A stretch of 64,000 bases of DNA from contig JAACJK010000110.1 in assembly GCA_013368325.1 (NCBI GenBank), positions 1,054,001 to 1,118,000 on the forward strand, in the 5' to 3' direction. Positions 16,362 to 53,735 of the stretch are shown here, in pieces (within the stretch, counting starts at the first letter, position 1; the number at the start of each line of letters is the position of its first letter). The stretch comes from Ephemerocybe angulata (Eukaryota > Basidiomycota > Agaricomycetes > Agaricales > Psathyrellaceae). The position numbers were made by a program, and so were the translations under genes. The notes under the pieces were generated by a model. It searched no databases. It worked only from the letters and a program-made list of their open reading frames with translations, and was not told where the DNA came from.

Positions 16362-16475
16362 CCTAATATGAAACCGATAAGTCACAAGTGTTTTATTACT
16401 TACACGAACATTAAGAGTACACCGAGATACAGAAAAGGATAAAAGAAAGGGAGGAGGATAGAGGGAAAGATCTTC

Positions 16476-17576
16476 TATTTTCTTGCGAACGTAATCTGCG
16501 GGAGGGGTCAGAAACACGGCTCGTAACGCGAAAGGCAAACGCACCTTGATCTTGTTCTCTCCGTCCAACTTGTAATTGTGCAGCGCATCCTTGGCGACAC
16601 CCGCACTCCCCTCGTCCAAGAACTCCACGAACGCAATGTCTTTCTTCGTCGGGATGAGACGGACTTCGTACAGGTTGGGGTACTGGGAGAAGAGGGCGTT
16701 GAGCTGGTCCTTCGTGACCGACTCGGGCAGGTTTTGCAAGAAAAGAATCTTGTTCGGGGGGAGGTACTCGTCCGGCATCTGGACGGCTGGCCGCTTGGCA
16801 GTGGGAAGGGCAGCTCCGCCGTCGACTGTGGGTGCAGATTAGTAGACGCTGGGGAGATGCGGGGAGGGACAGACTTTCGGCTGCCAGACGTTTGGCGCGG
16901 AACTTGGCTTTCAGGGGGTTCGTGTATCGCGTTGCCTCTGCGTGGAAGATGTCAGTATGGGGGGTTGGGGGCTGGGAAAAGGCGAACTCTTGTGCTCCTG
17001 TCGCTTGGTTTTGTGGTCGTCAAAGTTGTTGGGATCCTTCTTCTGCACCACCGCGTCTGATCGTGACCGTGCAAATGAGATTTGCTGAAGAATCATTAGA
17101 ACGTACTTCAACTTCAGATCGGATAGCCATGCACCATAGGTTTCGAGTAAAGCGGGAATCTCTGCACCTCCTTCATCGCTTTCTTCGCGACATCCGGATT
17201 CTCGAACGACACAAACGCTTGCCCCCGCATCCTCAGATTCTTATGCGCCACAACATCGAGTACCTCGCCGTATGTCTTGAACAATCCGCGTAGTGAGGCT
17301 TTCATCACTAAAGGCGACCATAATCCATCAGTTCATTTAATTGGCCCTAGATTCAAAATGCATACCGTCCGGCTTGATCTTTTCGTTCAGGTTTTGAATG
17401 TAGAGCGTTTCGCAAGAGTATTCGTCGGGTGTTGCTCCTTCGGCTACTACTGGGCCTACGCCTTCTACCGTTGCGGCTGCGAGCACTGGTGCGGGTTGGG
17501 CGAGTGTTGGCGCTGCGGTGACAACTCCTTGCATAGCATTGTCCTCCGACGTTGTAGGTGCTTGTACTTCGGCCAT
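16476..17576 (-). CDS. U1A/U2B''-type spliceosomal protein, paralogue A (left end of array)
   Basis: snRNP protein of the U1A/U2B''/SNF family, which binds stem-loop RNA of U1 and/or U2 snRNA in the nucleus. Six exons (17366-17576, 17135-17307, 16988-17084, 16875-16937, 16545-16825, 16476-16496) close in frame to 281 aa. An Ala/Pro-rich N-terminus of about 50 residues is followed by RRM1 (RNP2 LYIQNL, then NEKIKPDVMKASLRGLF, RNP1 RGQAFVSF), a Lys/Arg-rich linker and a C-terminal RRM2 (RNP2 LFLQNL, RNP1 DIAFVEF) ending ITFARK. Both RRMs look complete. Its 5' half recurs in all middle copies; its 3' half is unique to this copy, with substitutions and different intron 3-4 sequence from paralogue B. 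U1A and U2B'' cannot be told apart here; many fungi have a single SNF-like protein. Confidence 0.9.
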
Positions 17577-17770
17577 ATTCGTGATATGAAGATGAAAAGG
17601 AAACGCCTGGAATGTGCAGGATGGAGATCTAGAAGTACTGGTAGATGGACTGTTGCAGCTTGCAGCTTGCAGCGAGTGGCTGTACATTTTGCTTGTCCTA
17701 AATTGTTTTGGAAGCCGTGGGCGTCTCGGCACTGGCTCGACGCACCTGCATGCGCATGATTGCCCTCTGA

Positions 17771-18702
17771 TTGCCCTCTGCTCCCCTCGCCGCAACGGAC
17801 GCTGCTCAGCGCATGCACAAGGCCCGATCGACGTCGTTCAGGCGTCGAAACGTGGGAACGTTGCCCGACGTTCCTCTCCAATGCTCACCCATCCGCGCCT
17901 TTGCTTTCACTCTCAGAGGCGCGTCTCGACCCCCTCCAGCGTTCATTTCAATCAATCCATGCGATACAAATCTACGCTTCAAGTCTACACTACGACGTCC
18001 CAAGCTACATCTCTTCCTGCCAACCAAGTCTACGCCCCCCGCCGCATTTATTCCAGATTGCGCACAAGCCTCTCACAGCCAACTACAATCGACGACAACC
18101 CAGGACTGCTTTCACACCGACCGTGCAGGAATACGAGCAAGTCGGGGCCTCAACGGCGTCCTGAGCGGCCAAGTATGGCCACTCACTACCGATATCAGAC
18201 CACGTCAGCCTTCCAAGGACACCCGTTGACGGACACCTCCCCACACTCGCACCGCCAATTCGCCGGGCGCGCCGTATTTACTTCACCAAGCACCCACGCA
18301 GAGGCGCCACACTTCGACGGAGACCTGGCAAATACAGGTCAGCACGTACCGGACAAGTCGAAGCGAAAACACGCACTACGCCCCACATGGCCCCAATCGA
18401 GGGCGCAGCCTGCGACGACGACCAAACAAGCGGTGACCGAAGCAGCATCAGCGAGCGTAAGGGATTCAACGCCATCGAACTTCCCTCGATCCAAGCATCG
18501 TCGCAACACTCCGCCAACACGTCGTCCTAGCGATTCCAGATGAGCACGCACATCATCTCCCAGGACATAAACGACTCACCAACGCACTCGGGGATGGCGC
18601 ACGTTGTGCTCACTTCACCACGCCTGGTGGCCGTCACGACACACTCGCCTCCGCCTCTACGCCTTCGGCTTGGCCCTTTGGATCACTCTCTACCGAATCC
18701 AG
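17771..18702 (+). other. C-rich, stop-poor stretch open in all three plus frames
   Basis: Over about 17771-18164 all three plus-strand frames are open together, and one continues to 18543 (309 codons). The plus strand is rich in C and A and poor in T, so stops are rare by composition. Translations are low complexity (Arg, Pro, Ser, Thr) and match nothing I know. It ends exactly at a GTGAGT donor-like site at 18703, so it could be the first exon of a noncoding spliced transcript diverging from gene A. Confidence 0.4.
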
Positions 18703-20073
18703 GTGAGTACCCGCCCCCTGAGCTAAATCTCCGATGAAATGACTCACCAAGAAGCACTAGAAATCCCCGGAACATCCCCTCTCAAGCTAAGCTCGCAAAG
18801 GCAAGCCCCGAACGGTCAGGTGGAGGTTGAGCACAATGGTTGCTGCGCTGACATGGTTCTGGGGCGAAAACAGGTGAGTATATAGGCCAGAATTTGAAGC
18901 CGACTTACTCACTTGCAACCCCAAACTCCAGGAGTCCTTACGCCTTCGCACATGCCTCCACCTCCCGCTCGAATATGGCCATCGGCTCCCCGAGTCGCGC
19001 TCTAGCGAATCCGGGTCCACACTGACCCTGCGAGCGACTTCCCGACGATCCCAGAAACTTCCGAAGCGAACCCCGGATTCGACCTAAGCCTGTGAACCGC
19101 GATGGTGGCTGCGCTCGCATAGGGCTAGAGCAAAACTAGGTGAGTACGCGCCGTAGACCTGACACTGGCAGTGACAGACCAACTCACTGACCGATGACCA
19201 CAGCCTCCAGAAGACGGACCCAGTAGGTTTCGCCTGCGGCCTCATAGAGCGGCACTGGTCACGAGTCTAGGACCCCAGTACGCGACGCTCGCGCCCTCAA
19301 CGTACGACTGCAGCAACGATCGGTGAGTGCGCTGCCACTACCACAAAGCACTGTCACTTACCTCGACGTAGCCTAGATACGTCAAGGACATCGTGGACAA
19401 CACAACGGCTGGGTGAGGGTTATGCTTCGAGGAAGTCTGCGTCGGATAGGTAGGACGGTCACTGCGAAGGTATGTCAGTAATCAGAACCAATGTATTGAC
19501 ATTACACGAATAGACTTGCCTTTTTGACGAGCATACCGTGTGTTGTGACCAGGCAGGTCCGGGCGTTGCGGAGATTACGACGACGTCCAGGGCTCGATGA
19601 CGACCGTGAGTGCGTATGTCGACGACGGGGGAGAGCCGGTGTGAGTTTGCGACGGATCCAGGTGTGGTGAGGTTTTCGACGACGGCGCGTGTGTGAGTGC
19701 GTATGTCGACGATGGGTGACCGGACGTAGCCTGTGAAGGACGGCGGCTGGAGAAATGGGAGTCAGCGACGACCTCGAATCTGGGGAAATTGTAAGCTCAC
19801 ATCGAGAGGCTTTCCGGTATTGCTGGCGGACGGCTGAGGGGACAGAATGAGGTTAGACATGTCAACGAGTGAAGTGGTGTGAGCTCACTGCTTTGACGAT
19901 GAGCGGGCACGGCGTTGGAGGCTCTAAACAGTGAGGGAGAGGGTGAGCTCAATGTGGACGAGGGTGAGTAAGATAATTCACCTTGGGCATTGCGGACCCG
20001 GGCTGCCACAAACGAAGCCAAGGTGAGTAACAACGTCGCACATGCATTCAAGGATACACTGACCTCGGGTTAG
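18703..20073 (+). ncRNA. candidate spliced noncoding transcript (chain of intron-like elements)
   Basis: Plus-strand segments have all parts of a basidiomycete intron. 18703-18760 is GTGAGT...TGACTCAC...TAG; 18874-18931 is GTGAGT...TTACTCAC...CAG. 19140-19203 is GTGAGT...CTCACTGAC...CAG; 19323-19371 is GTGAGT...GTCACTTAC...TAG. 19470-19513 is GTATGT...TTGACAT...TAG, and 20023-20073 is GTGAGT...CACTGACC...TAG. Implied internal exons are 98-208 nt. I tried one spliced frame across the first junction and it stopped in the second exon; no domain appears. Either a lncRNA or a decayed gene fits. The same chain recurs in every unit. Confidence 0.4.
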
Positions 20074-22799
20074 ACACTGCACGACGGCGAGCAAAACGGT
20101 CTGGAGAATGGGTGAGGACGATGTAGACGGTGAGCAGGATGCATAAAACCATACCTCGACGACGGGCTCGACGACGAGCAGCCGCGGGGGAAATCGAGGA
20201 AGATGGGGGACGTGGCAAGACGGAGAAGCGAGCCGGGGGTATATATGTGGCGCGGGGTCTGAAATGGGATTGATCAAAGCGGGAATGGGGAGAGGCTCGA
20301 GCTCGTCGTTGGAAGGCAACGACGAGCACGTAGAATAGAGTAGAGCGACAGAGTAGATAGTAAAACAATATAAAGGGGACGTCGAAATAAAAGAAGTGGA
20401 ATAGTGAAATGGCAAATAGGCTTGAAGTGAAGGGGGAATGCCACTCGCTGAGGAGGATGCAGAACCAACTCACATCCTCCCAGCTTTTATACCCCAAGTC
20501 CCCCACACCGACGACCCCGAGCTTCACACACGCGTGAGGTTATTCTGTCATGCCAAGTCTCGGAAGCGAAGTCTCCGGTGAGTGAGTGTGTGCGAAACCG
20601 CCGTCCAGAATAACTTACGTGCGTATCGCTCTGCGCCGATTCGCTCTTGGCCCAATCTTCACGGCTCTGGAACGCCCCGTCGGCCTTAGCATAGTTCAGG
20701 CTGTCTGTGTGGCTTACGTGTGTGATGGTTATGCCTGCCAAGACTTGCCGAGATCTGGAATTAGTGTCGTTGTAATGGTGAATGGGGTGAGGAGGATGGG
20801 ATCGAAGATCTTGTGCATTTCTTCGTTGGGGGACTTACTGGGGGACATATAAACTATGGGATGGTATGTATCAATGTAGTTTCCACACGTAGCAGCTATT
20901 TGAGTAAAGTATTGCTTATATCTAACCAGTTGAATGAGCGACTCGACGAGTATCCGCCAACTGGGGTTCTATAAACACATTCCACGATATCTGGGTGACT
21001 CCGGTCACCAGCGCAAAATACGTACATAAACCTGCTATCTAGCTGCCAAGCCAGACATTATCCACCTCAACCGAACGCCCAGGCGCAGAACTCACGCAAA
21101 TCGACGCCAAACACATTCTCCCGCTCACCCCATTCACGCAAATAAGTCAAGTACATAAGTTGTAAAATTTTCCCTGGGCCGAGTGACAGCTGTCAGAATG
21201 CTGTGTCACCGCTTACTGCTAGTGTGTGAGTAAACGTAAGATGGGCTTTGAATGGGTGCGAGAGCACGGTTGGAGCGTAGGATGGGGTGGAGGAGTAGAG
21301 AGCGAGGTGGGCTTCATGCAGCTTTTCTACGAGTTTGGGTCTTGGTGGAAGGTAAGGGGTACCCTACTAATTGCGATAGGTATGTAATCCAAATGTACCT
21401 ACTAACCTAGAGGCTTGTATGTAACGAGTACCACTGCAATCGCATCCTTTGCACTTGGGCGCTTATATCACCAAGAACCGCTCTACCAGTGCCGTGGATT
21501 CAATTGAGCATCCACACGGCGCGTCATCGGTTCCTGAATGGCACACGTCATCTATATTTACCTTTATATACCTATTTATCCCTGACATATCTCCAAACGA
21601 GCCGAACGCATCTTCGACGCGCACCACCAAAGTCTCGTCGCGGTTCCCATCTTGGCGTTGACTTGCATGTTCGGATGCTCATGCCGGCTTCAGAGAGCGG
21701 TTACCAGTCATCGGCCACCAAATCTGAGAATTGTGATGTAGGCCCTGAGTATGCAAATAGACTTCTCGCGGAGGCACTCAGGAGTCAGATCCTTGGTTTG
21801 GAGGGTTGAGCCAGTATATGCCAAGTAGTTTCGATATTTGACCATAGCAAAGGCGCCAATACACTCGGTTGGTAGCTATATTACATACATGGGATACAGA
21901 CACTACACATGTAAGCAACTATGGGCCTTACAGTCCACTGGAGAATGCCCAGGAAGTGAACGCGACGCTTTAGCGCCATGGGCGCTTATCTCGGCGAAAC
22001 GTCAATATCTTATTCTCCGGCGCAATTTCGTCGTATAAACTAAGTCTATAGTAATTAGAAATAGCCTATCTCCTATATTACTAGAACGAAATACGGCGTA
22101 GGGCAATTGCCAGGTCTCGAAGGTGAAACCAAAGCGGATACTACGATTTCTCAAAGTCCGCCGGGCCCAGTGCCGCCGAAGTGACGACATTTACTTCGAC
22201 GGCATTTCTGGACCCCTGAAATTCTACGTAACGAGGCGGGGGTACTCTATACATCTTAAATTAAGCACCGTGGACTGGACAACATCATCCGACGCGATGA
22301 GCGGCGCCTGCGCTGCCGAAATGATAAATATAATAAATCATGTTAGCGCAGATTTCGTACACGGAAAAGAGGACAAGCGTACCTATGGGAACTATGGGAA
22401 ACTTGCGCATAGCCGTAAATTTACTTCAAAGAGTCCTGAATTTGGAAAAGGGGTTATGAGATGGGTGCTCGGGATGATGGGATAATGTGCGCTTACGGAA
22501 GGGCCGGGCCCGGTCCAGAAAACACGCTGGTGCCTGCATCGCGATGTCAAAGGGAGAAGGCATCAGATCAAAGTGCATACGTACCACTCAAAATAGCTGG
22601 TAAGCTCCGTGAATGATCTTTGAGGCGATGCGAGCGTGCTGGGGAGGGACCGAGTGAGCGCGAGGGCGCGAGATGATGACACGCTTGGCGCCAGATATAT
22701 CCTCCGCGCTGTCACCTGTGAGGTACCGAAAATCATAGCAATTTAAATACAAGGCTGACGTACCATGCGTGAGATTCAAAGTTTTCGGCGGTATGTCGA

Positions 22800-24325
22800 A
22801 AACACGACAGAAATGAATCCCGCGAGAGGGGACGGGCGAGCTTGATGGGCTGTCAGAATCAAAGCACGGAAATTGCAGGAGTTGATGGACGTACACGATT
22901 TCAATGGCTTTTTAGATTATTGATGTTCCGGTAGGCTGTGCGAAAACGGGATGAGTTGGGAAGGAGATAATGAAATGAAATATATGACATACCTTTTCCA
23001 GGCATCGCGAAATAACGACGGATCGAAATCCCGCAAACGCTGTCACGGAACAGGAAATGCCGCACGTCTAAAACTATCAAATTAGTGGCCCATGGTCCCG
23101 CTGTCGATACGAAGACACAACAGAATTGCGTCCGGTGAGCAATGGATCTGAAGCATGAAAATGAGGCACGCACCGCATGGCTCCGACGCCGAGGGTGCAG
23201 TATCCAATTTTGCGAGATTTGAAGGCTTGCGGGCGCGTATCTTCGACGTGGCAGTCACTATCCGGAGCTGGGGTGTTGGACTCGGGACGCCATAGACGCT
23301 GAGTAGAGACACTATTGGAGTCAACAGAGAGGTCGCGAGTGGAGACGAGTGACGTACTGCAGCGAGGGCCGCGCCAGCGCGCATGGGGAAGTCGAGGTGA
23401 TGGCGCCGTCGGGATGCCCAAACGCAACAGAAATGCGTCCGGCGAGCGACGCGTCTGGATCCGGAGAATGGGTTTGAATGGCGTGAAGGGGAAAGGTAGT
23501 CAACAGAGGGGCCACATGGGGAGACGGGCGACGTACCAGAGCCTGAGCCAGTGCCGCGCCGGCGCATGTGGAAGTCGAGGTGATGGCGCCGGGACGCCCA
23601 AGGCAACAGAAATGCGTCCGGCGAGCGACGTGTTTTGGGGATGGGTTTGAATGGCGTGGAGGGGAATGGTAGTCAACAGAGAGGCCACAATGGGAGACGA
23701 GCGACGTACTGAGCGAGTGCCGTGCCCGCGCGTATGCGAAAGTCGAGGTGATGGCGCCGGGATTGCCCAAACGCAACAGAAATGCGTCCGGCGAGCGACG
23801 TGTCGGGGGCATGAGTTTGGATGGTTGTGGAGGGGAAGGGTAGCCACACACATTGGAAGAATTTGAGGCACATTCAAGTGCCGCTGCCAGCGGATATTTG
23901 AAGGACCGGATGTCAACGATGATGTTCTACAAGATAAAGCGACGACTCCGTATGAGTCAGTAGACACGTCATAATCTCCAGAAAGCCACGTACTAGGGAA
24001 CGAGCATTGCAGTCGTCTCGCTGGAAGCGCCCAAACGCAACAGAAATCCTTCCGGCGAGCGGTGTCGAGCGGCCTCGCGTGTGTAGTGAACCGTGAGGGG
24101 AGGTGACGACTCAGGCTGGCGCAACTGTACTGCTGTCCCTGGAATGAAGTCAGGAAAGCGGACAGAGCATCCATACGGTCAGTACTCACCGAGACTGTAG
24201 ACAGCGTCACCGAGACAGCGAGGGCAAGCGAGTTGATGACGAGGGCTGGGGCGAGAGACGATCAATGGAAGTGTGCTGGAACTTCGAATACACGACGTAT
24301 CGACGTCCGGCGAGCGACTTCAGGC
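22800..24325. repeat. degenerate internal tandem repeat in the spacer
   Basis: A conserved core, plus strand ACAGAAATGCGTCCGGCGAG, recurs at about 23417, 23597 and 23766 with near-identical 170-180 bp surroundings, and in weaker form at about 22803, 23113, 24029 and 24301. Outside the core, AAGTCGAGGTGATGGCGCCG, GTCAACAGAG and GGCCACA also repeat. Read on the minus strand, units have a GTACGT donor-like site followed by TGTTGACT, so the repeat may be a duplicated exon-intron module. The 170-300 codon minus-strand frames here are repeats of the same peptide in three registers and are not convincing proteins. Present in all four spacers. Confidence 0.7.
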
Positions 24326-24961
24326 AGAATGGAGGACATGGTGGGGGATGAAGGGGGGATAATTTGGAGGGCTGTATGGCCTGACTCTGAGAGTCGAAAT
24401 CAATTCTCGGAGGTACGGGATGTTGCAGGGGTGGAGATCATGCCGTGAGGGTGTGCGGTCGGGTAGCGCGAAACGTCACAATTGGGAAATTCAGCCCAAG
24501 TACCTGCTCTCCACCTACGCCCCTCCGCCGTGTTGGGGAGTTGAATGTAACTTGAATTACCAGTCACCTACAGTAGTACTTGAAGGGATAATACCGCAGG
24601 CATGGCAAAGCGACGAGTTCTCCAAGTCCCGCACTAAAGGCAGCGAGCCGACTAGTGTGAGAACGCGGACTTGGCGTTCAGAGATCTGCATCGCAATATC
24701 TCAGAGTGGCCTTGGAGCCTGTGGATATTGTGCAGGAATTCAACTGTATATTAATTCTCTGAATACACACACTGGTGGAGTAGATGGAGGACTACCTACG
24801 AGTACCTACGAGGGGAGGGGGACGATGGGCCGAGCCGTGTTTCGTCACGACAGAGGGCATCATGGACTCCCGCCCACACATCCGTAAGAGTCTATCCCCG
24901 AGGCTTGTTTAATCCCTCCTCGTGACCCGGTTAACGGGTAAACAGGGCACGCAGACTGGGG

Positions 24962-25325
24962 TATATAACCTGGGGAGAAATGGGAACCCACCCACATCCA
25001 TCCCGCCACTATGCCCTCTCGCCGGCACCCTCGTCTGCCGCGCCTGTCCCAGTCGTCGCCCGCGTCCGTCGTCACCCATCCCTCACCCCTGTCTGGCGCA
25101 GTCACCGCCTCTCTGTCGTGGTCGTAGTCAGTATCGCCGTCTCGCCGTCACGCTCCCCTTGCTCGCACCTTCGCCGTCGCAGCTGGCCACCTCTGTCTCG
25201 CGCCGCCACTCTTCCTCTGCCGCAGCTGTCGTGTTTGTAGTCAGTAGTACCCGTAGTCAGTAGTCAGTATTAGACCTCCCCGGCTCCGGTGCGCAGAGGA
25301 CACGCCGTCCCTCTGCGCGCCGGGG
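24962..25325 (+). promoter_or_regulatory. TATA box, 38-codon ORF and strong hairpin (unit 1)
   Basis: TATATAA at 24962-24968 is followed 49 bp later by an ATG that opens a 38-codon frame (25011-25127). Next comes AGTCAGTA repeated four times at 25235-25272. A hairpin at 25278-25325 pairs CCCCGGC and GCGCAGAGG with CCTCTGCGC and GCCGGGG: 16 bp with a 6-nt bulge and a 10-nt loop. The layout resembles a short capped transcript ending in a stable stem, converging on the 3' end of the spliceosomal gene. Function unknown. Confidence 0.5.
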
Positions 25326-25483
25326 CCGATAATGGAGGATGCCGTGGGAAGAGACACCTATGAAAAAACGCTGAAAGTTCGTTGAGCGAAAGAACCTACA
25401 TGAAACCGACAAGTCACAAGCCTTACGCGAACATTAAGAGTACACCGAGATACAGAAAGGAGGAGGGTAGAGGCAGAGATCTT

Positions 25484-26582
25484 CTATTTTCTTGCGAACG
25501 TAATCTGCGGGAGGGGTCAGAAACACGGCTCGTAACGCGAAAGGCAAACGCACCTTGATCTTGTTCTCTCCGTCCAACTTGTAATTGTGCAGCGCATCCT
25601 TGGCGACACCCGCACTCCCCTCGTCCAAGAATTCCACGAACGCAATGTCTTTCTTCGTCGGGATGAGACGGACTTCGTACAGATTGGGGTACTGGGAGAA
25701 GAGGGCGTTGAGCTGGTCCTTCGTGACCGACTCGGGCAGGTTTTGCAAGAAAAGAATCTTGTTCGGGGGAGGTACTCGTCCGGCATCTGGACGGCTGGCC
25801 GCTTGGCAGTGGGAAGCGCGGCTCCTCCGTCGACTGTGGGCACGGATTAGTAGACGCTGGGAAGATGCGGGGAGGGACGAACTTTCGGCTGCCAGACGTT
25901 TGGCGCGGAACTTGGCTTTGAGGGGTTTGTGTATCGCGTCGCTTCTGCGTGGAATATGTGAGTATGTATGGGTCGAAGAAGTTGGAGAACGGACTCTTGT
26001 GCTCCTGTCGCTTGGTTTGTGGTCGTCAAAGTTGTTGGGATCCTTCTTCTGCACCACCGCGTCTGATCGTGACCGTGCAAATGAGATTTGCTGAAGAATC
26101 ATTAGAACGTACTTCAACTTCAGATCGGATAGCCATGCACCATAGGTTTCGAGTAAAGCGGGAATCTCTGCACCTCCTTCATCGCTTTCTTCGCGACATC
26201 CGGATTCTCGAACGACACAAACGCTTGCCCCCGCATCCTCAGATTCTTATGCGCCACAACATCGAGTACCTCGCCGTATGTCTTGAACAATCCGCGTAGT
26301 GAGGCTTTCATCACTAAAGGCGACCATAATCCATCAGTTCATTTAATTGGCCCTAGATTCAAAATGCATACCGTCCGGCTTGATCTTTTCGTTCAGGTTT
26401 TGAATGTAGAGCGTTTCGCAAGAGTATTCGTCGGGTGTTGCTCCTTCGGCTACTACTGGGCCTACGCCTTCTACCGTTGCGGCTGCGAGCACTGGTGCGG
26501 GTTGGGCGAGTGTTGGCGCTGCGGTGACAACTCCTTGCATAGCATTGTCCTCCGACGTTGTAGGTGCTTGTACTTCGGCCAT
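25484..26582 (-). pseudogene. chimeric U1A/U2B''-type gene, copy 2 (A 5' half, B 3' half), with indels
   Basis: Same six-exon layout as paralogues A and B. Right of about 26097 (5' exons, first intron, intron 3) the bases follow A; left of about 25993 (linker exon, RRM2 exon, last exon, their introns) they follow B. Compared with B it lacks one G near 25766 in the RRM2 exon, one G near 25930 in the linker exon and one T near 26016 in the preceding exon. These are all homopolymer losses that shift the frame. They may be consensus errors; if corrected, the gene would encode essentially the A protein. Called pseudogene only because the sequence as given is broken. Confidence 0.75.
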
Positions 26583-29500
26583 ATTCGTGATATGAAGATG
26601 AAAAGGAAACGCCTGGAATGTGCAGGATGGAGATCTAGAAGTACTGGTAGATGGACTGTTGCAGCTTGCAGCTTGCAGCGAGTGGCTGTACATTTTGCTT
26701 GTCCTAAATTGTTTTGGAAGCCGTGGGCGTCTCGGCACTGGCTCGACGCACCTGCATGCGCATGATTGCCCTCTGATTGCCCTCTGCTCCCCTCGCCGCA
26801 ACGGACGCTGCTCAGCGCATGCACAAGGCCCGATCGACGTCGTTCAGGCGTCGAAACGTGGGAACGTTGCCCGACGTTCCTCTCCAATGCTCACCCATCC
26901 GCGCCTTTGCTTTCACTCTCAGAGGCGCGTCTCGACCCCCTCCAGCGTTCATTTCAATCAATCCATGCGATACAAATCTACGCTTCAAGTCTACACTACG
27001 ACGTCCCAAGCTACATCTCTTCCTGCCAACCAAGTCTACGCCCCCCGCCGCATTTATTCCAGATTGCGCACAAGCCTCTCACAGCCAACTACAATCGACG
27101 ACAACCCAGGACTGCTTTCACACCGACCGTGCAGGAATACGAGCAAGTCGGGCCTCAACGGCGTCCTGAGCGGCCAAGTATGGCCACTCACTACCGATAT
27201 CAGACCACGTCAGCCTTCCAAGGACACCCGTTGACGGACACCTCCCCACACTCGCACCGCCAATTCGCCGGGCGCGCCGTATTTACTTCACCAAGCACCC
27301 ACGCAGAGGCGCCACACTTCGACGGAGACCTGGCAAATACAGGTCAGCACGTACCGGACAAGTCGAAGCGAAAACACGCACTACGCCCCACATGGCCCCA
27401 ATCGAGGGCGCAGCCTGCGACGACGACCAAACAAGCGGTGACCGAAGCAGCATCAGCGAGCGTAAGGGATTCAACGCCATCGAACTTCCCTCGATCCAAG
27501 CATCGTCGCAACACTCCGCCAACACGTCGTCCTAGCGATTCCAGATGAGCACGCACATCATCTCCCAGGACATAAACGACTCACCAACGCACTCGGGGAT
27601 GGCGCACGTTGTGCTCACTTCACCACGCCTGGTGGCCGTCACGACACACTCGCCTCCGCCTCTACGCCTTCGGCTTGGCCCTTTGGATCACTCTCTACCG
27701 AATCCAGGTGAGTACCCGCCCCCTGAGCTAAATCTCCGATGAAATGACTCACCAAGAAGCACTAGAAATCCCCGGAACATCCCCTCTCAAGCTAAGCTCG
27801 CAAAGGCAAGCCCCGAACGGTCAGGTGGAGGTTGAGCACAATGGTTGCTGCGCTGACATGGTTCTGGGGCGAAAACAGGTGAGTATATAGGCCAGAATTT
27901 GAAGCCGACTTACTCACTTGCAACCCCAAACTCCAGGAGTCCTTACGCCTTCGCACATGCCTCCACCTCCCGCTCGAATATGGCCATCGGCTCCCCGAGT
28001 CGCGCTCTAGCGAATCCGGGTCCACACTGACCCTGCGAGCGACTTCCCGACGATCCCAGAAACTTCCGAAGCGAACCCCGGATTCGACCTAAGCCTGTGA
28101 ACCGCGATGGTGGCTGCGCTCGCATAGGGCTAGAGCAAAACTAGGTGAGTACGCGCCGTAGACCTGACACTGGCAGTGACAGACCAACTCACTGACCGAT
28201 GACCACAGCCTCCAGAAGACGGACCCAGTAGGTTTCGCCTGCGGCCTCATAGAGCGGCACTGGTCACGAGTCTAGGACCCCAGTACGCGACGCTCGCGCC
28301 CTCAACGTACGACTGCAGCAACGATCGGTGAGTGCGCTGCCACTACCACAAAGCACTGTCACTTACCTCGACGTAGCCTAGATACGTCAAGGACATCGTG
28401 GACAACACAACGGCTGGGTGAGGGTTATGCTTCGAGGAAGTCTGCGTCGGATAGGTAGGACGGTCACTGCGAAGGTATGTCAGTAATCAGAACCAATGTA
28501 TTGACATTACACGAATAGACTTGCCTTTTTGACGAGCATACCGTGTGTTGTGACCAGGCAGGTCCGGGCGTTGCGGAGATTACGACGACGTCCAGGGCTC
28601 GATGACGACCGTGAGTGCGTATGTCGACGACGGGGGAGAGCCGGTGTGAGTTTGCGACGGATCCAGGTGTGGTGAGGTTTCGACGACGGCGCGTGTGTGA
28701 GTGCGTATGTCGACGATGGGTGACCGGACGTAGCCTGTGAAGGACGGCGGCTGGAGAAATGGGAGTCAGCGACGACCTCGAATCTGGGGAAATTGTAAGC
28801 TCACATCGAGAGGCTTTCCGGTATTGCTGGCGGACGGCTGAGGGACAGAATGAGGTTAGACATGTCAACGAGTGAAGTGGTGTGAGCTCACTGCTTTGAC
28901 GATGAGCGGGCACGGCGTTGGAGGCTCTAAACAGTGAGGGAGAGGGTGAGCTCAATGTGGACGAGGGTGAGTAAGATAATTCACCTTGGGCATTGCGGAC
29001 CCGGGCTGCCACAAACCGAAGCCAGGTGAGTAACAACGTCGCACATGCATTCAAGGATACACTGACCTCGGGTTAGACACTGCACGACGGCGAGCAAAAC
29101 GGTCTGGAGAATGGGTGAGGACGATGTAGACGGTGAGCAGGATGCATAAAACCATACCTCGACGACGGGCTCGACGACGAGCAGCCGCGGGGGAAATCGA
29201 GGAAGATGGGGGACGTGGCAAGACGGAGAAGCGAGCCGGGGTATATATGTGGCGCGGGGGTCTGAAATGGGATGATCAAAGCGGGAATGGGAGAGGCTCG
29301 AGCTCGTCGTTGGAAGGCAACGACGAGCACGTAGAATAGAGTAGAGCGACAGAGTAGATAGTAAAACAATATAAAGGGGACGTCGAAATAAAAGAGTGGA
29401 ATAGTGAAATGGCAATAGGCTTGAAGTGAAGGGGGAATGCCACTCGCTGAGGAGGATGCAGAACCAACTCACATCCTCCCAGCTTTTATACCCCAAGTCC

Positions 29501-33926: not shown

Positions 33927-34290
33927 TATATAACCTGGGGAGAAATGGGAACCCACCCACATCCATCCCGCCACTATGCCCTCTCGCCGGCACCCTCGTC
34001 TGCCGCGCCTGTCCCAGTCGTCGCCCGCGTCCGTCGTCACCCATCCCTCACCCCTGTCTGGCGCAGTCACCGCCTCTCTGTCGTGGTCGTAGTCAGTATC
34101 GCCGTCTCGCCGTCACGCTCCCCTTGCTCGCACCTTCGCCGTCGCAGCTGGCCACCTCTGTCTCGCGCCGCCACTCTTCCTCTGCCGCAGCTGTCGTGTT
34201 TGTAGTCAGTAGTACCCGTAGTCAGTAGTCAGTATTAGACCTCCCCGGCTCCGGTGCGCAGAGGACACGCCGTCCCTCTGCGCGCCGGGG
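33927..34290 (+). promoter_or_regulatory. TATA box, mini-ORF and hairpin (unit 2)
   Basis: Copy of the unit 1 module: TATATAA at 33927-33933, ATG at 33976, hairpin at 34243-34290 with both arms intact. Confidence 0.5.
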
Positions 34291-34449
34291 CCGATAATGG
34301 AGGATGCCGTGGGAAGAGACACCTATGAAAAAAACGCTGAAAGTTCGTTGAGCGAAAGAACCTACATGAAACCGACAAGTCACAAGCCTTACGCGAACAT
34401 TAAGAGTACACCGAGATACAGAAAGGAGGAGGGTAGAGGCAGAGATCTT

Positions 34450-42910: not shown

Positions 42911-43273
42911 TATATAACCTGGGGAGAAATGGGAACCCACCCACATCCATCCCGCCACTATGCCCTCTCGCCGGCACCCTCGTCTGCCGCGCCTGTCCAG
43001 TCGTCGCCCGCGTCCGTCGTCACCCATCCCTCACCCCTGTCTGGCGCAGTCACCGCCTCTCTGTCGTGGTCGTAGTCAGTATCGCCGTCTCGCCGTCACG
43101 CTCCCCTTGCTCGGCACCTTCGCCGTCGCAGCTGGCCACCTCTGTCTCGCGCCGCCACTCTTCCTCTGCCGCAGCTGTCGTGTTTGTAGTCAGTAGTACC
43201 CGTAGTCAGTAGTCAGTATTAGACCTCCCCGGCTCCGGTGCGCAGAGGACACGCCGTCCTCTGCGCGCCGGGG
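42911..43273 (+). promoter_or_regulatory. TATA box, mini-ORF and hairpin (unit 3)
   Basis: Copy of the unit 1 module: TATATAA at 42911-42917 and hairpin at 43227-43273 with a loop one base shorter. A missing C in the mini-ORF shifts its frame. Confidence 0.5.
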
Positions 43274-43431
43274 CCGATAATGGAGGATGCCGTGGGAAGA
43301 GACACCTATGAAAAAACGCTGAAGTTCGTTTGAGCGAAAGAACCTACATGAAACCGACAAGTCACAAGCCTTACGCGAACATTAAGAGTACACCGAGATA
43401 CAGAAAGGAGGAGGGTAGAGGCAGAGATCTT

Positions 43432-44530
43432 CTATTTTCTTGCGAACGTAATCTGCGGGAGGGGTCAGAACACGGCTCGTAACGCGAAAGGCAAACGCAC
43501 CTTGATCTTGTTCTCTCCGTCCAACTTGTAATTGTGCAGCGCATCCTTGGCGACACCCGCACTCCCCTCGTCCAAGAATTCCACGAACGCAATGTCTTTC
43601 TTCGTCGGGATGAGACGGACTTCGTACAGATTGGGGTACTGGGAGAAGAGGGCGTTGAGCTGGTCCTTCGTGACCGACTCGGGCAGGTTTTGCAAGAAAA
43701 GAATCTTGTTCGGGGGGAGGTACTCGTCCGGCATCTGGACGGCTGGCCGCTTGGCAGTGGGAAGCGCGGCTCCTCCGTCGACTGTGGGCACGGATTAGTA
43801 GACGCTGGGAAGATGCGGGAGGGACGAACTTTCGGCTGCCAGACGTTTGGCGCGGAACTTGGCTTTGAGGGGTTTGTGTATCGCGTCGCTTCTGCGTGGA
43901 ATATGTGAGTATGTATGGGTCGAAGAAGTTGGAGAACGGACTCTTGTGCTCCTGTCGCTTGGTTTTGTGGTCGTCAAAGTTGTTGGGATCCTTCTTCTGC
44001 ACCACCGCGTCTGATCGTGACCGTGCAAATGAGATTTGCTGAAGAATCATTAGAACGTACTTCAACTTCAGATCGGATAGCCATGCACCATAGGTTTCGA
44101 GTAAAGCGGGAATCTCTGCACCTCCTTCATCGCTTTCTTCGCGACATCCGGATTCTCGAACGACACAAACGCTTGCCCCCGCATCCTCAGATTCTTATGC
44201 GCCACAACATCGAGTACCTCGCCGTATGTCTTGAACAATCCGCGTAGTGAGGCTTTCATCACTAAAGGCGACCATAATCCATCAGTTCATTTAATTGGCC
44301 CTAGATTCAAAATGCATACCGTCCGGCTTGATCTTTTCGTTCAGGTTTTGAATGTAGAGCGTTTCGCAAGAGTATTCGTCGGGTGTTGCTCCTTCGGCTA
44401 CTACTGGGCCTACGCCTTCTACCGTTGCGGCTGCGAGCACTGGTGCGGGTTGGGCGAGTGTTGGCGCTGCGGTGACAACTCCTTGCATAGCATTGTCCTC
44501 CGACGTTGTAGGTGCTTGTACTTCGGCCAT
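43432..44530 (-). pseudogene. chimeric U1A/U2B''-type gene, copy 4, one frameshift
   Basis: Third chimeric copy, again A at the 5' side and B at the 3' side. Both RRM-coding exons match the intact genes. The only coding defect I found is a G run of four rather than five in the 63-nt linker exon (about 43869-43873), which would shift the frame before RRM2. An intronic G is also missing near 43818. This copy may well be functional if the homopolymer call is wrong. Confidence 0.7.
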
Positions 44531-47500
44531 ATTCGTGATATGAAGATGAAAGGAAACGCCTGGAATGTGCAGGATGGAGATCTAGAAGTACTGGTAGATG
44601 GACTGTTGCAGCTTGCAGCTTGCAGCGAGTGGCTGTACATTTTGCTTGTCCTAAATTGTTTTGGAAGCCGTGGGCGTCTCGGCACTGGCTCGACGCACCT
44701 GCATGCGCATGATTGCCCTCTGATTGCCCTCTGCTCCCCTCGCCGCAACGGACGCTGCTCAGCGCATGCACAAGGCCCGATCGACGTCGTTCAGGCGTCG
44801 AAACGTGGGAACGTTGCCCGACGTTCCTCTCCAATGCTCACCCATCCGCGCCTTTGCTTTCACTCTCAGAGGCGCGTCTCGACCCCCCTCCAGCGTTCAT
44901 TTCAATCAATCCATGCGATACAAATCTACGCTTCAAGTCTACACTACGACGTCCCAAGCTACATCTCTTCCTGCCAACCAAGTCTACGCCCCCCGCCGCA
45001 TTTATTCCAGATTGCGCACAAGCCTCTCACAGCCAACTACAATCGACGACAACCCAGGACTGCTTTCACACCGACCGTGCAGGAATACGAGCAAGTCGGG
45101 GCCTCAACGGCGTCCTGAGCGGCCAAGTATGGCCACTCACTACCGATATCAGACCACGTCAGCCTTCCAAGGACACCCGTTGACGGACACCTCCCCACAC
45201 TCGCACCGCCAATTCGCCGGGCGCGCCGTATTTACTTCACCAAGCACCCACGCAGAGGCGCCACACTTCGACGGAGACCTGGCAAATACAGGTCAGCACG
45301 TACCGGACAAGTCGAAGCGAAAACACGCACTACGCCCCACATGGCCCCAATCGAGGGCGCAGCCTGCGACGACGACCAAACAAGCGGTGACCGAAGCAGC
45401 ATCAGCGAGCGTAAGGGATTCAACGCCATCGAACTTCCCTCGATCCAAGCATCGTCGCAACACTCCGCCAACACGTCGTCCTAGCGATTCCAGATGAGCA
45501 CGCACATCATCTCCCAGGACATAAACGACTCACCAACGCACTCGGGATGGCGCACGTTGTGCTCACTTCACCACGCCTGGTGGCCGTCACGACACACTCG
45601 CCTCCGCCTCTACGCCTTCGGCTTGGCCCTTTGGATCACTCTCTACCGAATCCAGGTGAGTACCCGCCCCCTGAGCTAAATCTCCGATGAAATGACTCAC
45701 CAAGAAGCACTAGAAATCCCCGGAACATCCCCTCTCAAGCTAAGCTCGCAAAGGCAAGCCCCGAACGGTCAGGTGGAGGTTGAGCACAATGGTTGCTGCG
45801 CTGACATGGTTCTGGGGCGAAAACAGGTGAGTATATAGGCCAGAATTTGAAGCCGACTTACTCACTTGCAACCCCAAACTCCAGGAGTCCTTACGCCTTC
45901 GCACATGCCTCCACCTCCCGCTCGAATATGGCCATCGGCTCCCCGAGTCGCGCTCTAGCGAATCCGGGTCCACACTGACCCTGCGAGCGACTTCCCGACG
46001 ATCCCAGAAACTTCCGAAGCGAACCCCGGATTCGACCTAAGCCTGTGAACCGCGATGGTGGCTGCGCTCGCATAGGGCTAGAGCAAAACTAGGTGAGTAC
46101 GCGCCGTAGACCTGACACTGGCAGTGACAGACCAACTCACTGACCGATGACCACAGCCTCCAGAAGACGGACCCAGTAGGTTTCGCCTGCGGCCTCATAG
46201 AGCGGCACTGGTCACGAGTCTAGGACCCCAGTACGCGACGCTCGCGCCCTCAACGTACGACTGCAGCAACGATCGGTGAGTGCGCTGCCACTACCACAAA
46301 GCACTGTCACTTACCTCGACGTAGCCTAGATACGTCAAGGACATCGTGGACAACACAACGGCTGGGTGAGGGTTATGCTTCGAGGAAGTCTGCGTCGGAT
46401 AGGTAGGACGGTCACTGCGAAGGTATGTCAGTAATCAGAACCAATGTATTGACATTACACGAATAGACTTGCCTTTTTGACGAGCATACCGTGTGTTGTG
46501 ACCAGGCAGGTCCGGGCGTTGCGGAGATTACGACGACGTCCAGGGCTCGATGACGACCGTGAGTGCGTATGTCGACGACGGGGGAGAGCCGGTGTGAGTT
46601 TGCGACGGATCCAGGTGTGGTGAGGTTTTCGACGACGGCGCGTGTGTGAGTGCGTATGTCGACGATGGGTGACCGGACGTAGCCTGTGAAGGACGGCGGC
46701 TGGAGAAATGGGAGTCAGCGACGACCTCGAATCTGGGGAAATTGTAAGCTCACATCGAGAGGCTTTCCGGTATTGCTGGCGGACGGCTGAGGGGACAGAA
46801 TGAGGTTAGACATGTCAACGAGTGAAGTGGTGTGAGCTCACTGCTTTGACGATGAGCGGGCACGGCGTTGGAGGCTCTAAACAGTGAGGGAGAGGGTGAG
46901 CTCAATGTGGACGAGGGTGAGTAAGATAATTCACCTTGGGCATTGCGGACCCGGGCTGCCACAAACGAAGCCAAGGTGAGTAACAACGTCGCACATGCAT
47001 TCAAGGATACACTGACCTCGGGTTAGACACTGCACGACGGCGAGCAAAACGGTCTGGAGAATGGGTGAGGACGATGTAGACGGTGAGCAGGATGCATAAA
47101 ACCATACCTCGACGACGGGCTCGACGACGAGCAGCCGCGGGGGAAATCGAGGAAGATGGGGGACGTGGCAAGACGGAGAAGCGAGCCGGGGGTATATATG
47201 TGGCGCGGGGTCTGAAATGGGATTGATCAAAGCGGGAATGGGGAGAGGCTCGAGCTCGTCGTTGGAAGGCAACGACGAGCACGTAGAATAGAGTAGAGCG
47301 ACAGAGTAGATAGTAAAACAATATAAAGGGGACGTCGAAATAAAAGAAGTGGAATAGTGAAATGGCAAATAGGCTTGAAGTGAAGGGGGAATGCCACTCG
47401 CTGAGGAGGATGCAGAACCAACTCACATCCTCCCAGCTTTTATACCCCAAGTCCCCCACACCGACGACCCCGAGCTTCACACACGCGTGAGGTTATTCTG

Positions 47501-50500
47501 TCATGCCAAGTCTCGGAAGCGAAGTCTCCGGTGAGTGAGTGTGTGCGAAACCGCCGTCCAGAATAACTTACGTGCGTATCGCTCTGCGCCGATTCGCTCT
47601 TGGCCCAATCTTCACGGCTCTGGAACGCCCCGTCGGCCTTAGCATAGTTCAGGCTGTCTGTGTGGCTTACGTGTGTGATGGTTATGCCTGCCAAGACTTG
47701 CCGAGATCTGGAATTAGTGTCGTTGTAATGGTGAATGGGGTGAGGAGGATGGGATCGAAGATCTTGTGCATTTCTTCGTTGGGGGACTTACTGGGGGACA
47801 TATAAACTATGGGATGGTATGTATCAATGTAGTTTCCACACGTAGCAGCTATTTGAGTAAAGTATTGCTTATATCTAACCAGTTGAATGAGCGACTCGAC
47901 GAGTATCCGCCAACTGGGGTTCTATAAACACATTCCACGATATCTGGGTGACTCCGGTCACCAGCGCAAAATACGTACATAAACCTGCTATCTAGCTGCC
48001 AAGCCAGACATTATCCACCTCAACCGAACGCCCAGGCGCAGAACTCACGCAAATCGACGCCAAACACATTCTCCCGCTCACCCCATTCACGCAAATAAGT
48101 CAAGTACATAAGTTGTAAAATTTTCCCTGGGCCGAGTGACAGCTGTCAGAATGCTGTGTCACCGCTTACTGCTAGTGTGTGAGTAAACGTAAGATGGGCT
48201 TTGAATGGGTGCGAGAGCACGGTTGGAGCGTAGGATGGGGTGGAGGAGTAGAGAGCGAGGTGGGCTTCATGCAGCTTTTCTACGAGTTTGGGTCTTGGTG
48301 GAAGGTAAGGGGTACCCTACTAATTGCGATAGGTATGTAATCCAAATGTACCTACTAACCTAGAGGCTTGTATGTAACGAGTACCACTGCAATCGCATCC
48401 TTTGCACTTGGGCGCTTATATCACCAAGAACCGCTCTACCAGTGCCGTGGATTCAATTGAGCATCCACACGGCGCGTCATCGGTTCCTGAATGGCACACG
48501 TCATCTATATTTACCTTTATATACCTATTTATCCCTGACATATCTCCAAACGAGCCGAACGCATCTTCGACGCGCACCACCAAAGTCTCGTCGCGGTTCC
48601 CATCTTGGCGTTGACTTGCATGTTCGGATGCTCATGCCGGCTTCAGAGAGCGGTTACCAGTCATCGGCCACCAAATCTGAGAATTGTGATGTAGGCCCTG
48701 AGTATGCAAAATAGACTTCTCGCGGAGGCACTCAGGAGTCAGATCCTTGGTTTGGAGGGTTGAGCCAGTATATGCCAAGTAGTTTCGATATTTGACCATA
48801 GCAAAGGCGCCAATACACTCGGTTGGTAGCTATATTACATACATGGGATACAGACACTACACATGTAAGCAACTATGGGCCTTACAGTCCACTGGAGAAT
48901 GCCCAGGAAGTGAACGCGACGCTTTAGCGCCATGGGCGCTTATCTCGGCGAAACGTCAATATCTTATTCTCCGGCGCAATTTCGTCGTATAAACTAAGTC
49001 TATAGTAATTAGAAATAGCCTATCTCCTATATTACTAGAACGAAATACGGCGTAGGGCAATTGCCAGGTCTCGAAGGTGAAACCAAAGCGGATACTACGA
49101 TTTCTCAAAGTCCGCCGGGCCCAGTGCCGCCGAAGTGACGACATTTACTTCGACGGCATTTCTGGACCCCTGAAATTCTACGTAACGAGGCGGGGGTACT
49201 CTATACATCTTAAATTAAGCACCGTGGACTGGACAACATCATCCGACGCGATGAGCGGCGCCTGCGCTGCCGAAATGATAAATATAATAAATCATGTTAG
49301 CGCAGATTTCGTACACGGAAAAGAGGACAAGCGTACCTATGGGAACTATGGGAAACTTGCGCATAGCCGTAAATTTACTTCAAAGAGTCCTGAATTTGGA
49401 AAAGGGGTTATGAGATGGGTGCTCGGGATGATGGGATAATGTGCGCTTACGGAAGGGCCGGGCCCGGTCCAGAAAACACGCTGGTGCCTGCATCGCGATG
49501 TCAAAGGGAGAAGGCATCAGATCAAAGTGCATACGTACCACTCAAAATAGCTGGTAAGCTCCGTGAATGATCTTTGAGGCGATGCGAGCGTGCTGGGGAG
49601 GGACCGAGTGAGCGCGAGGGCGCGAGATGATGACACGCTTGGCGCCAGATATATCCTCCGCGCTGTCACCTGTGAGGTACCGAAAATCATAGCAATTTAA
49701 ATACAAGGCTGACGTACCATGCGTGAGATTCAAAGTTTTCGGCGGTATGTCGAAAACACGACAGAAATGAATCCCGCGAGAGGGGGACGGGCGAGCTTGA
49801 TGGGCTGTCAGAATCAAAGCACGGAAATTGCAGGAGTTGATGGACGTACACGATTTCAATGGCTTTTTTAGATTATTGATGTTCCGGTAGGCTGTGCGAA
49901 AACGGGATGAGTTGGGAAGGAGATAATGAAATGAAATATATGACATACCTTTTCCAGGCATCGCGAAATAACGACGGATCGAAATCCCGCAAACGCTGTC
50001 ACGGAACAGGAAATGCCGCACGTCTAAAACTATCAAATTAGTGGCCCATGGTCCCGCTGTCGATACGAAGACACAACAGAATTGCGTCCGGTGAGCAATG
50101 GATCTGAAGCATGAAAATGAGGCACGCACCGCATGGCTCCGACGCCGAGGGTGCAGTATCCAATTTTGCGAGATTTGAAGGCTTGCGGGCGCGTATCTTC
50201 GACGTGGCAGTCACTATCCGGAGCTGGGGTGTTGGACTCGGGACGCCATAGACGCTGAGTAGAGACACTATTGGAGTCAACAGAGAGGTCGCGAGTGGAG
50301 ACGAGTGACGTACTGCAGCGAGGGCCGCGCCAGCGCGCATGGGGAAGTCGAGGTGATGGCGCCGTCGGGATGCCCAAACGCAACAGAAATGCGTCCGGCG
50401 AGCGACGCGTCTGGATCCGGAGAATGGGTTTGAATGGCGTGAAGGGGAAAGGTAGTCAACAGAGGGGCCACATGGGGAGACGGGCGACGTACCAGAGCCT

Positions 50501-51916
50501 GAGCCAGTGCCGCGCCGGCGCATGTGGAAGTCGAGGTGATGGCGCCGGGACGCCCAAGGCAACAGAAATGCGTCCGGCGAGCGACGTGTTTTGGGGATGG
50601 GTTTGAATGGCGTGGAGGGGAATGGTAGTCAACAGAGAGGCCACAATGGGAGACGAGCGACGTACTGAGCGAGTGCCGTGCCCGCGCGTATGCGAAAGTC
50701 GAGGTGATGGCGCCGGGATTGCCCAAACGCAACAGAAATGCGTCCGGCGAGCGACGTGTCGGGGGCATGAGTTTGGATGGTTGTGGAGGGAAGGGTAGCC
50801 ACACACATTGGAAGAATTTGAGGCACATTCAAGTGCCGCTGCCAGCGGATATTTGAAGGACCGGATGTCAACGATGATGTTCTACAAGATAAAGCGACGA
50901 CTCCGTATGAGTCAGTAGACACGTCATAATCTCCAGAAAGCCACGTACTAGGGAACGAGCATTGCAGTCGTCTCGCTGGAAGCGCCCAAACGCAACAGAA
51001 ATCCTTCCGGCGAGCGGTGTCGAGCGGCCTCGCGTGTGTAGTGAACCGTGAGGGGAGGTGACGACTCAGGCTGGCGCAACTGTACTGCTGTCCCTGGAAT
51101 GAAGTCAGGAAAGCGGACAGAGCATCCATACGGTCAGTACTCACCGAGACTGTAGACAGCGTCACCGAGACAGCGAGGGCAAGCGAGTTGATGACGAGGG
51201 CTGGGGCGAGAGACGATCAATGGAAGTGTGCTGGAACTTCGAATACACGACGTATCGACGTCCGGCGAGCGACTTCAGGCAGAATGGAGGACATGGTGGG
51301 GGATGAAGGGGGGATAATTTGGAGGGCTGTATGGCCTGACTCTGAGAGTCGAAATCAATTCTCGGAGGTACGGGATGTTGCAGGGGTGGAGATCATGCCG
51401 TGAGGGTGTGCGGTCGGGTAGCGCGAAACGTCACAATTGGGAAATTCAGCCCAAGTACCTGCTCTCCACCTACGCCCCTCCGCCGTGTTGGGGAGTTGAA
51501 TGTAACTTGAATTACCAGTCACCTACAGTAGTACTTGAAGGGATAATACCGCAGGCATGGCAAAGCGACGAGTTCTCCAAGTCCCGCACTAAAGGCAGCG
51601 AGCCGACTAGTGTGAGAACGCGGACTTGGCGTTCAGAGATCTGCATCGCAATATCTCAGAGTGGCCTTGGAGCCTGTGGATATTGTGCAGGAATTCAACT
51701 GTATATTAATTCTCTGAATACACACACTGGTGGAGTAGATGGAGGACTACCTACGAGTACCTACGAGGGGAGGGGGACGATGGGCCGAGCCGTGTTTCGT
51801 CACGACAGAGGGCATCATGGACTCCCGCCCACACATCCGTAAGAGTCTATCCCCGAGGCTTGTTTAATCCCTCCTCGTGACCCGGTTAACGGGTAAACAG
51901 GGCACGCAGACTGGGG

Positions 51917-52280
51917 TATATAACCTGGGGAGAAATGGGAACCCACCCACATCCATCCCGCCACTATGCCCTCTCGCCGGCACCCTCGTCTGCCGCGCCT
52001 GTCCCAGTCGTCGCCCGCGTCCGTCGTCACCCATCCCTCACCCCTGTCTGGCGCAGTCACCGCCTCTCTGTCGTGGTCGTAGTCAGTATCGCCGTCTCGC
52101 CGTCACGCTCCCCTTGCTCGCACCTTCGCCGTCGCAGCTGGCCACCTCTGTCTCGCGCCGCCACTCTTCCTCTGCCGCAGCTGTCGTGTTTGTAGTCAGT
52201 AGTACCCGTAGTCAGTAGTCAGTATTAGACCTCCCCGGCTCCGGTGCGCAGAGGACACGCCGTCCCTCTGCGCGCCGGGG
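51917..52280 (+). promoter_or_regulatory. TATA box, mini-ORF and hairpin (unit 4)
   Basis: Copy of the unit 1 module next to paralogue B: TATATAA at 51917-51923 and hairpin at 52233-52280, 159 bp beyond the stop codon of gene B. Confidence 0.5.
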
Positions 52281-52438
52281 CCGATAATGGAGGATGCCGT
52301 GGGAAGAGACACCTATGAAAAAACGCTGAAAGTTCGTTGAGCGAAAGAACCTACATGAAACCGACAAGTCACAAGCCTTACGCGAACATTAAGAGTACAC
52401 CGAGATACAGAAAGGAGGAGGGTAGAGGCAGAGATCTT

Positions 52439-53565
52439 CTATTTTCTTGCGAACGTAATCTGCGGGAGGGGTCAGAAACACGGCTCGTAACGCGAAAGGC
52501 AAACGCACCTTGATCTTGTTCTCTCCGTCCAACTTGTAATTGTGCAGCGCATCCTTGGCGACACCCGCACTCCCCTCGTCCAAGAATTCCACGAACGCAA
52601 TGTCTTTCTTCGTCGGGATGAGACGGACTTCGTACAGATTGGGGTACTGGGAGAAGAGGGCGTTGAGCTGGTCCTTCGTGACCGACTCGGGCAGGTTTTG
52701 CAAGAAAAGAATCTTGTTCGGGGGGAGGTACTCGTCCGGCATCTGGACGGCTGGCCGCTTGGCAGTGGGAAGCGCGGCTCCTCCGTCGACTGTGGGCACG
52801 GATTAGTAGACGCTGGGAAGATGCGGGGAGGGACGAACTTTCGGCTGCCAGACGTTTGGCGCGGAACTTGGCTTTGAGGGGGTTTGTGTATCGCGTCGCT
52901 TCTGCGTGGAATATGTGAGTATGTATGGGTCGAAGAAGTTGGAGAACGGACTCTTGTGCTCCTGTCGCTTGGTTTTGTGGTCGTCAAAGTTGTTGGGATC
53001 CTTCTTCTGCACCACCGCGTCTGATCGTGACCGTGCAAATGAGATTTGCTGAAGAGTCATTCACAGTCATGGAATAGACGTTAAAGCGTATGTGAGTGTC
53101 AGATCGACCAAAACTGGATGTAGGGCACGCACCATGGGTTTCGAATACAACGGGAACCTCTGCACCTCCTTCATCGCTTTCTTCGCGACATCCGCATTCT
53201 CAAACGAAACAAATGCCTGCCCCCGCATCCTCAGATTCTTATGGGCCACAACATCGAGTACCTCGCCGTATGTCTTGAACAATCCGCGTAGCGATGCTTT
53301 CATCACTGGAATCCGAATCAATAATTGAATTGGGCATAGATAAAGGTTGCATACCGTCTGGCTTGATCTTTTCGTTTAGGTTTTGGATATAGAGCGTTTC
53401 GCAGGAGTATTCGTCGGGTGCTGCTCCTTCGGCTACTACTGGGCCTGTGCCTTCTACCGTTGCAGCTGCGAGCACTGGTGCGGGTTGGGCGAGGGTTGGC
53501 GCTGCGTCGACAACTCCTTGCATAGCGTTGTCCTCGGTCGTTGGAGGTGCTTGAACTTCAGCCAT
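52439..53565 (-). CDS. U1A/U2B''-type spliceosomal protein, paralogue B (right end of array)
   Basis: Intact six-exon gene: 53355-53565, 53133-53305, 52952-53048, 52839-52901, 52509-52789, 52439-52459, closing in frame to 281 aa. Same architecture as A: Ala/Pro-rich N-terminus, RRM1 with LYIQNL and RGQAFVSF, basic linker, RRM2 with LFLQNL and DIAFVEF, C-terminal ITFARK. It differs from A by scattered substitutions in the N-terminal 50 residues (for example PPTTED against PTTSED, GTGP against GVGP) and one in RRM1 (ENAD against ENPD). Intron 2 is 84 nt against 50 nt in A and unrelated in sequence; intron 1 also differs. RRM2 appears identical in both proteins. Upstream similarity to A extends about 170 bp, then stops. 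Confidence 0.92.
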
Positions 53566-53735
53566 CTTTTGAGGATATAAAGATGAAGAAACCCCTTGAA
53601 ATGAGTTGACTGGTAGCTGGACTGTTGCAGCTTGAGCTTGGCTACAGCTTGCAGCTTGCAGCAAGTGGCTGTGCTTTTGTCTGTCCCAGATTGTTTTGGA
53701 AGCCAAAGGCGTCTCGGAACTAGCCGACACTTTGA

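Follow-up and report, generated by a model that had tools for sequence, protein, structure and literature searches.

Hybrid genes arising from unequal exchange between paralogues are well known from haemoglobin Lepore and anti-Lepore and from the red/green opsins, in which protein or expression is changed; the hybrids described below, in contrast, are predicted to code for the protein of one parent. Unequal crossing-over between flanking direct repeats is the scheme given for the Ty-flanked duplications of yeast in PMC4232551 (legend of Fig. 1B). According to the passages on CUP1 in the same source, the arrays of this gene in Saccharomyces cerevisiae vary naturally in number, with single-copy strains known, and were founded by non-homologous recombination. 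The compared passages of PMC12690857 describe a 13-kb tandem-paralogue expansion at ROP8-ROP2A of Toxoplasma gondii, which varies among isolates of a single strain and was refractory to standard assembly. For the SNF/U1A/U2B'' gene, the passages used from PMC9887622 give duplications in at least 22 lineages.

The locus analyzed here, a tandem array of SNF-type genes in the mushroom Ephemerocybe angulata (Psathyrellaceae), resembles the Ty-flanked case in that direct repeats flank a unique interval, recombine and duplicate this interval, whereby a hybrid repeat would be expected at the junction by the scheme of PMC4232551. It differs in that the repeats are diverged protein-coding paralogues, whose divergence allows the breakpoint to be placed within a 106-bp tract, and in that the array has grown to about four units. 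Like CUP1 it is a tandem gene array, but while CUP1 goes back to non-homologous recombination in the account of PMC4232551, the founding junction here is homologous, as it lies where the 1.4-kb homologues share 106 identical bp. ROP8-ROP2A is likewise a tandem-paralogue expansion, though of other genes in another organism and with no analysis of a switch between parental types in the compared passages of PMC12690857. In distinction from the SNF duplications elsewhere, the paralogues here differ by just 6 of 281 residues and sit in a tandem array. A literature search on tandem duplication by unequal crossing-over in mushrooms and Agaricomycetes returned titles and abstract openings from which no such arrays were evident, and no paper was found under the name Ephemerocybe angulata.

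Layout of the array and its genes

The window, i.e. the whole analyzed stretch of 64,000 nucleotides, comprises bases 1,054,001-1,118,000 of a 1,468,734-bp contig (C86) in an assembly of 58.7 Mb and 232 contigs. Self-comparison of the window revealed five minus-strand SNF-type (U1A/U2B'') gene copies of ~1.4 kb each, which alternate with four near-identical spacers at a period of ~9.0 kb. The parts were delimited by self-comparison, complemented by site typing for the genes, exon reading for both end copies and an error count for the spacers:

16358..17741, minus strand: gene A, left parental paralogue, 6 exons, 281 aa (homology block common to A and B)
16986..17091, minus strand: 106-bp tract identical in A and B by alignment, whole exon 3 plus a few bases; B counterpart at 52950-53055
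17742..25390, no strand: spacer S1, sequence clean
25391..26747, minus strand: chimera ch1, left (3' half) B-type, right (5' half) A-type
26748..34356, no strand: spacer S2, many 1-bp deletions relative to the other units
34357..35707, minus strand: chimera ch2
35708..43338, no strand: spacer S3, many 1-bp deletions
43339..44694, minus strand: chimera ch3
44695..52345, no strand: spacer S4
52346..53728, minus strand: gene B, right parental paralogue, 6 exons, 281 aa
23319..23843, 32287-32810, 41268-41793 and 50275-50798, no strand: minisatellite, 3 copies of ~173-179 bp, one minisatellite per spacer

The end copies lie on the same strand and are 85% identical across 1.4 kb, in agreement with an earlier note on this DNA, which had called them distinct paralogues, A at left and B at right. 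Their outer flanks share no match of more than 150 bp in the self-comparison of the window. Ten stop-to-stop reading frames of the spacer gave no match in Pfam, and the whole window gave none in Rfam at gathering scores. A search for relatives of two spacer frames returned a few predicted proteins of unknown function, some of them from E. angulata itself. One 280-codon spacer frame (window 17701-18540) matched a protein on a 1,315-bp contig at 100% over 89% and the predicted protein D9611_005404 at 100% over 38%. Directly to the right of the array, a frame with a malic enzyme NAD-binding domain is located at window 55472-56272.

Both A and B read as intact, each with six exons, 281 codons and GT-AG introns. 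The B protein carries RRM_1 with two stretches, and its best PDB matches are U2B'' (4e-49) and U1A (3.4e-48); these matches were obtained on B, from which A differs at 6 of 281 residues, and the protein of ch1 as assembled carries an RRM as well. Since RRMs are present and B comes closest to U2B'' and U1A among solved structures, the genes belong, judged by sequence, to the SNF/U1A/U2B'' family. Among the best 120 of 1,158 relatives, clustered at 90%, E. angulata appears four times and Candolleomyces aberdarensis twice, while Agaricus bisporus and Coprinopsis cinerea are each represented by two strains. The six residues which distinguish A from B (8, 10, 20, 40, 49 and 108) are all encoded in exons 1-2, and exons 3-6 of both genes give an identical protein.

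A common switch point in the middle copies

Parental type was assigned site by site on a MAFFT alignment limited to the extent of A (16358-17741), which provides 46 substitution sites to the left and 124 to the right of the 106-bp tract. To the left each of the three middle copies is B-type at 46/46 sites, and to the right A-type sites amount to 124/124 for ch1, 122/124 for ch2 and 123/124 for ch3; of the three deviating sites, two lie in ch2 (one B-type, the other of neither type) and the third, of neither type, in ch3. Each chimera thereby contains one switch, which in 3/3 middle copies falls within A16985-17092 / B52949-53056. Longer stretches of A/B identity than this tract exist, with runs of 155 and 134 bp found further left. 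Such a pattern, B on the left and A on the right with a single switch, cannot be chance. It is the arrangement that the earlier note had described for the middle copies, and the check it had proposed, whether diagnostic sites are interspersed or split, gave a split at one point in all three.

We consider it probable that the array was born by non-allelic homologous recombination between the old, directly repeated paralogues A and B and then gained whole units. Starting from A and B as direct repeats ~9 kb apart, B on one chromatid would have recombined with A on the other within the identical exon-3 tract, a step to which the junction points strongly, and the product would be A-S-X-S-B, where S is the spacer and X joins the 3' half of B to the 5' half of A. 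In a second step, unequal exchange between whole identical units may have led to about three chimeras and four spacers; all chimeras would share one switch point because the later growth proceeded by whole identical units, a manner of growth which the earlier note had proposed and which is supported here. At the sequence level each chimera has the promoter side and the protein sequence of A together with introns 3-5 and the 3' end of B. Because the chimeras keep A's promoter side and protein sequence, the array would add A-type gene doses, along with spacer copies. All six amino-acid differences lie upstream of the switch, and as exons 1-2 come from A the predicted product is protein A, sequence errors aside. 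Read from the sequence, the chimeras code for A while carrying introns and 3' ends of B, and they do not give new proteins; the idea of chimeric genes with novel products does not hold, the chimerism being silent at the protein level.

A mosaic could also originate from five whole-segment duplicates whose middle copies were converted later. Between the parents themselves the divergence is indeed uneven, with no differences in exon 3 (0/97), intron 5 (0/49) and exon 6 (0/21) and 19, 14 and 19 substitutions in introns 1, 2 and 3, respectively, which suggests older gene conversion between A and B or constraint on the exons. Such probable conversion lends this origin some plausibility, but duplication of whole segments does not fit outer flanks of A and B that lack a match of more than 150 bp, identical conversion ends would be needed in three copies, and the B-left/A-right polarity with a spacer on both sides is what a crossover is expected to leave. 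We therefore regard later conversion of the middle copies as highly improbable.

A replication-based route, namely break-induced replication or re-replication with annealing between A and B, could have produced several units per event. It overlaps with the preferred explanation and differs in the route, and all that the junction reveals is which homologies recombined, namely A and B; for yeast, the pertinent passages of PMC3536649 and PMC4232551 describe re-replication accompanied by recombination of flanking repeats. No feature of the window demands it, however, and ordinary unequal exchange is enough, so that we hold this route for unlikely, albeit with a real chance of being correct.

Sequence noise, the single-unit contig and the number of units

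As assembled, ch1-ch3 are frameshifted. Departures from the unit consensus, mostly single-base deletions, number 52 in S2, 33 in S3, 4 in S1 and 3 in S4. The density of deletions is similar in gene and spacer (4.3 and 6.0 per kb for S2, 5.2 and 3.4 for S3), and 31/52 in S2 and 24/33 in S3 lie in homopolymers of at least 3, which make up ~16% of the bases. Pseudogenes are not favoured for ch1-ch3, given the like deletion density in gene and spacer and the homopolymer enrichment; the deletions of the middle units are more readily understood as unpolished sequence. Between S1 and S4 there is no substitution except two A/B-diagnostic sites at the unit edge. An alignment of five units, S1-S4 and the one on a separate contig (C111), contains 18 substitution columns, namely an A/B site at the unit edge and 17 others, which form tight clusters in S2 or S3 only. 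These clustered columns were rejected as true substitutions among the spacers and read as alignment noise beside deletions.

The separate contig, 14,521 bp long and of the same assembly, has the order left flank (0.98 kb), A, spacer, B, right flank (3.15 kb), and this single-unit form is in keeping with the parental layout A-spacer-B that the earlier note had assumed. Compared with C86, the 7.6-kb spacer and B are free of substitutions, and those in the unique flanks are few (2 left, 4 right) and all stand beside indels; it is accordingly taken as the same haplotype on sequence grounds, and an origin from the other nucleus of a dikaryon was rejected for the same lack of substitutions in the spacer and the position of the flank ones next to indels. 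Its copy of A differs from that of C86 at 6 bases, and among the 46 left-side sites 40 are A-type, 4 B-type and 2 of neither type, which we tentatively take as read mixing. The shared unique flanks contain 7 and 13 gap columns in this contig but only one each in C86, and as it is the noisier contig there, the single-unit form seems to be backed by few reads. It could represent a rare single-unit molecule, either the ancestral form or a contracted array, which would look alike, or a collapsed or alternative assembly path.

The main rival explanation is an assembly artefact, in which a locus that is truly A-S-B was inflated by repeated passes of the assembler through the spacer loop, and the middle genes would be consensus mixes composed of B reads in their left and A reads in their right part. 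C111 is exactly the expected single-unit form, the spacers lack convincing substitutions, and the middle units are full of 1-bp deletions and frameshifted. Furthermore, the periods of the three arrays of similar anatomy in this genome (see below) are close to each other (9.0, 9.28 and ~9.6 kb), which might have a technical cause, and both C111 and a further contig, C95, disagree with C86 on the number of units; for the kinase array on C95 and C86, loop-walking could also give such a disagreement. Corrected-read overlaps usually tolerate far less than 15% divergence. A and B differ by 15%, beyond this tolerance, the switch is clean in all three hybrids rather than mixed, and it is C111 that is the noisier contig in the shared flanks.

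The distribution of residual errors, counted from 16981 to 52945, bears on the same question. From the left flank only 9 occur in the first 12 kb, reaching past ch1, followed by 11, 17, 11 and 12 per kb; at the other end, 7 occur within 10 kb of the right flank and 10 at 10-11 kb, at the far edge of ch3, and few thereafter to about 15 kb. The near-clean sequence inward from the left flank, extending past ch1 before the noise sets in, speaks against repeated loop-walking and is what flank-anchored long reads entering the array would leave, even though the clean zone ends sooner on the right side. Assemblers of the kind used here usually use each read once. C95 would need its own reads joining one hybrid unit to the next, and such reads probably exist, since this contig holds two consecutive hybrid units of the kinase array where C86 holds one. 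Taken together, an assembly artefact appears quite unlikely to us, and a real array founded by recombination between A and B remains the preferred reading; the number of units, about three chimeras and four spacers, is that of the assembly and is provisional.

Related arrays and their meaning for the genome

Matches listed in the profile scan comprised at least 88 for RRM, 148 for kinase, 104 for helicase C, 110 for P450, 9 for MFS, 150 for WD40 and 21 for short-chain dehydrogenase. The switch test covered three of six recent-looking direct duplications, namely the SNF array, an RRM-gene array on C11 and a kinase array on C86, and a switch in the order parent-chimera-parent was found in 3/3. 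Outside this test stand a 4.28-kb and a 2.4-kb duplication, for which substitutions only were compared, and a repeat on C190.

The array on C11 consists of three RRM-gene copies 9.28 kb apart, whose middle copy is of the right-parent type at 27/27 and then of the left-parent type at 217/217 sites, with one switch in a ~122-bp tract. Over 9,277 columns its units differ by a single gap and by no substitution, and the search for extra contigs of this array found none. The kinase array (C86, 937-965 kb) lies 0.1 Mb to the left of the SNF array and has units of ~9.6 kb; its middle unit is of the right-parent type at 5/5 substitution sites, few as they are for the left side of the switch, plus 10 gap columns, and then of the left-parent type at 695/695 sites. 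Units 1 and 2 differ by 0 substitutions and 13 gaps over 8,294 columns. C95 (22,455 bp) is a second version of this array and contains a unit end, the two hybrid units and, in its last 1.3 kb, the start of the right parent. The earlier expectation that such an architecture is rarely seen with both parents kept does not apply to this genome, where two more ~9-kb arrays have the same kind of switch.

Further duplications were noticed alongside. A helicase-domain tandem duplication at C86:811664-820228 (2 x 4,283 bp) has 3 substitutions, and the 2.4-kb tandem duplication at C11:345001-349611 has 1 in 2,204 bp; at all 4 the first copy has the base A where the second has G. On C190, five WD40 matches at 131244-131993 recur at 158131-158880 with equal bit scores and a constant shift of 26,887 bp, which suggests a larger recent duplication. 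Equal-score helicase C matches also occur as inverted pairs, ~3.3 kb apart on C24 and C144 and 12.3 kb apart on C77.

The SNF array is a very clean example of a known textbook process. Both parents, the hybrids and the single-unit form are present in one assembly, which makes it a well-preserved case and allows the founding breakpoint to be mapped to about 100 bp. For the SNF gene, whose independent duplications are reported in at least 22 lineages in the passages used from PMC9887622, it adds a barely diverged one. The two further arrays of the same anatomy suggest that recombination from paralogue to paralogue has repeatedly given rise to recent gene amplification in E. angulata. More speculatively, and we rather doubt it, recombination between diverged tandem paralogues could be a standing and ongoing route of amplification at many such loci, with unit number varying between the nuclei of one mycelium and C111 and C95 as variant nuclei. 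If this were true, many loci would hold parent-chimera-parent arrays of identical units, and C111 with its one unit and C95 with one extra hybrid unit would be nuclei caught in the assembly.
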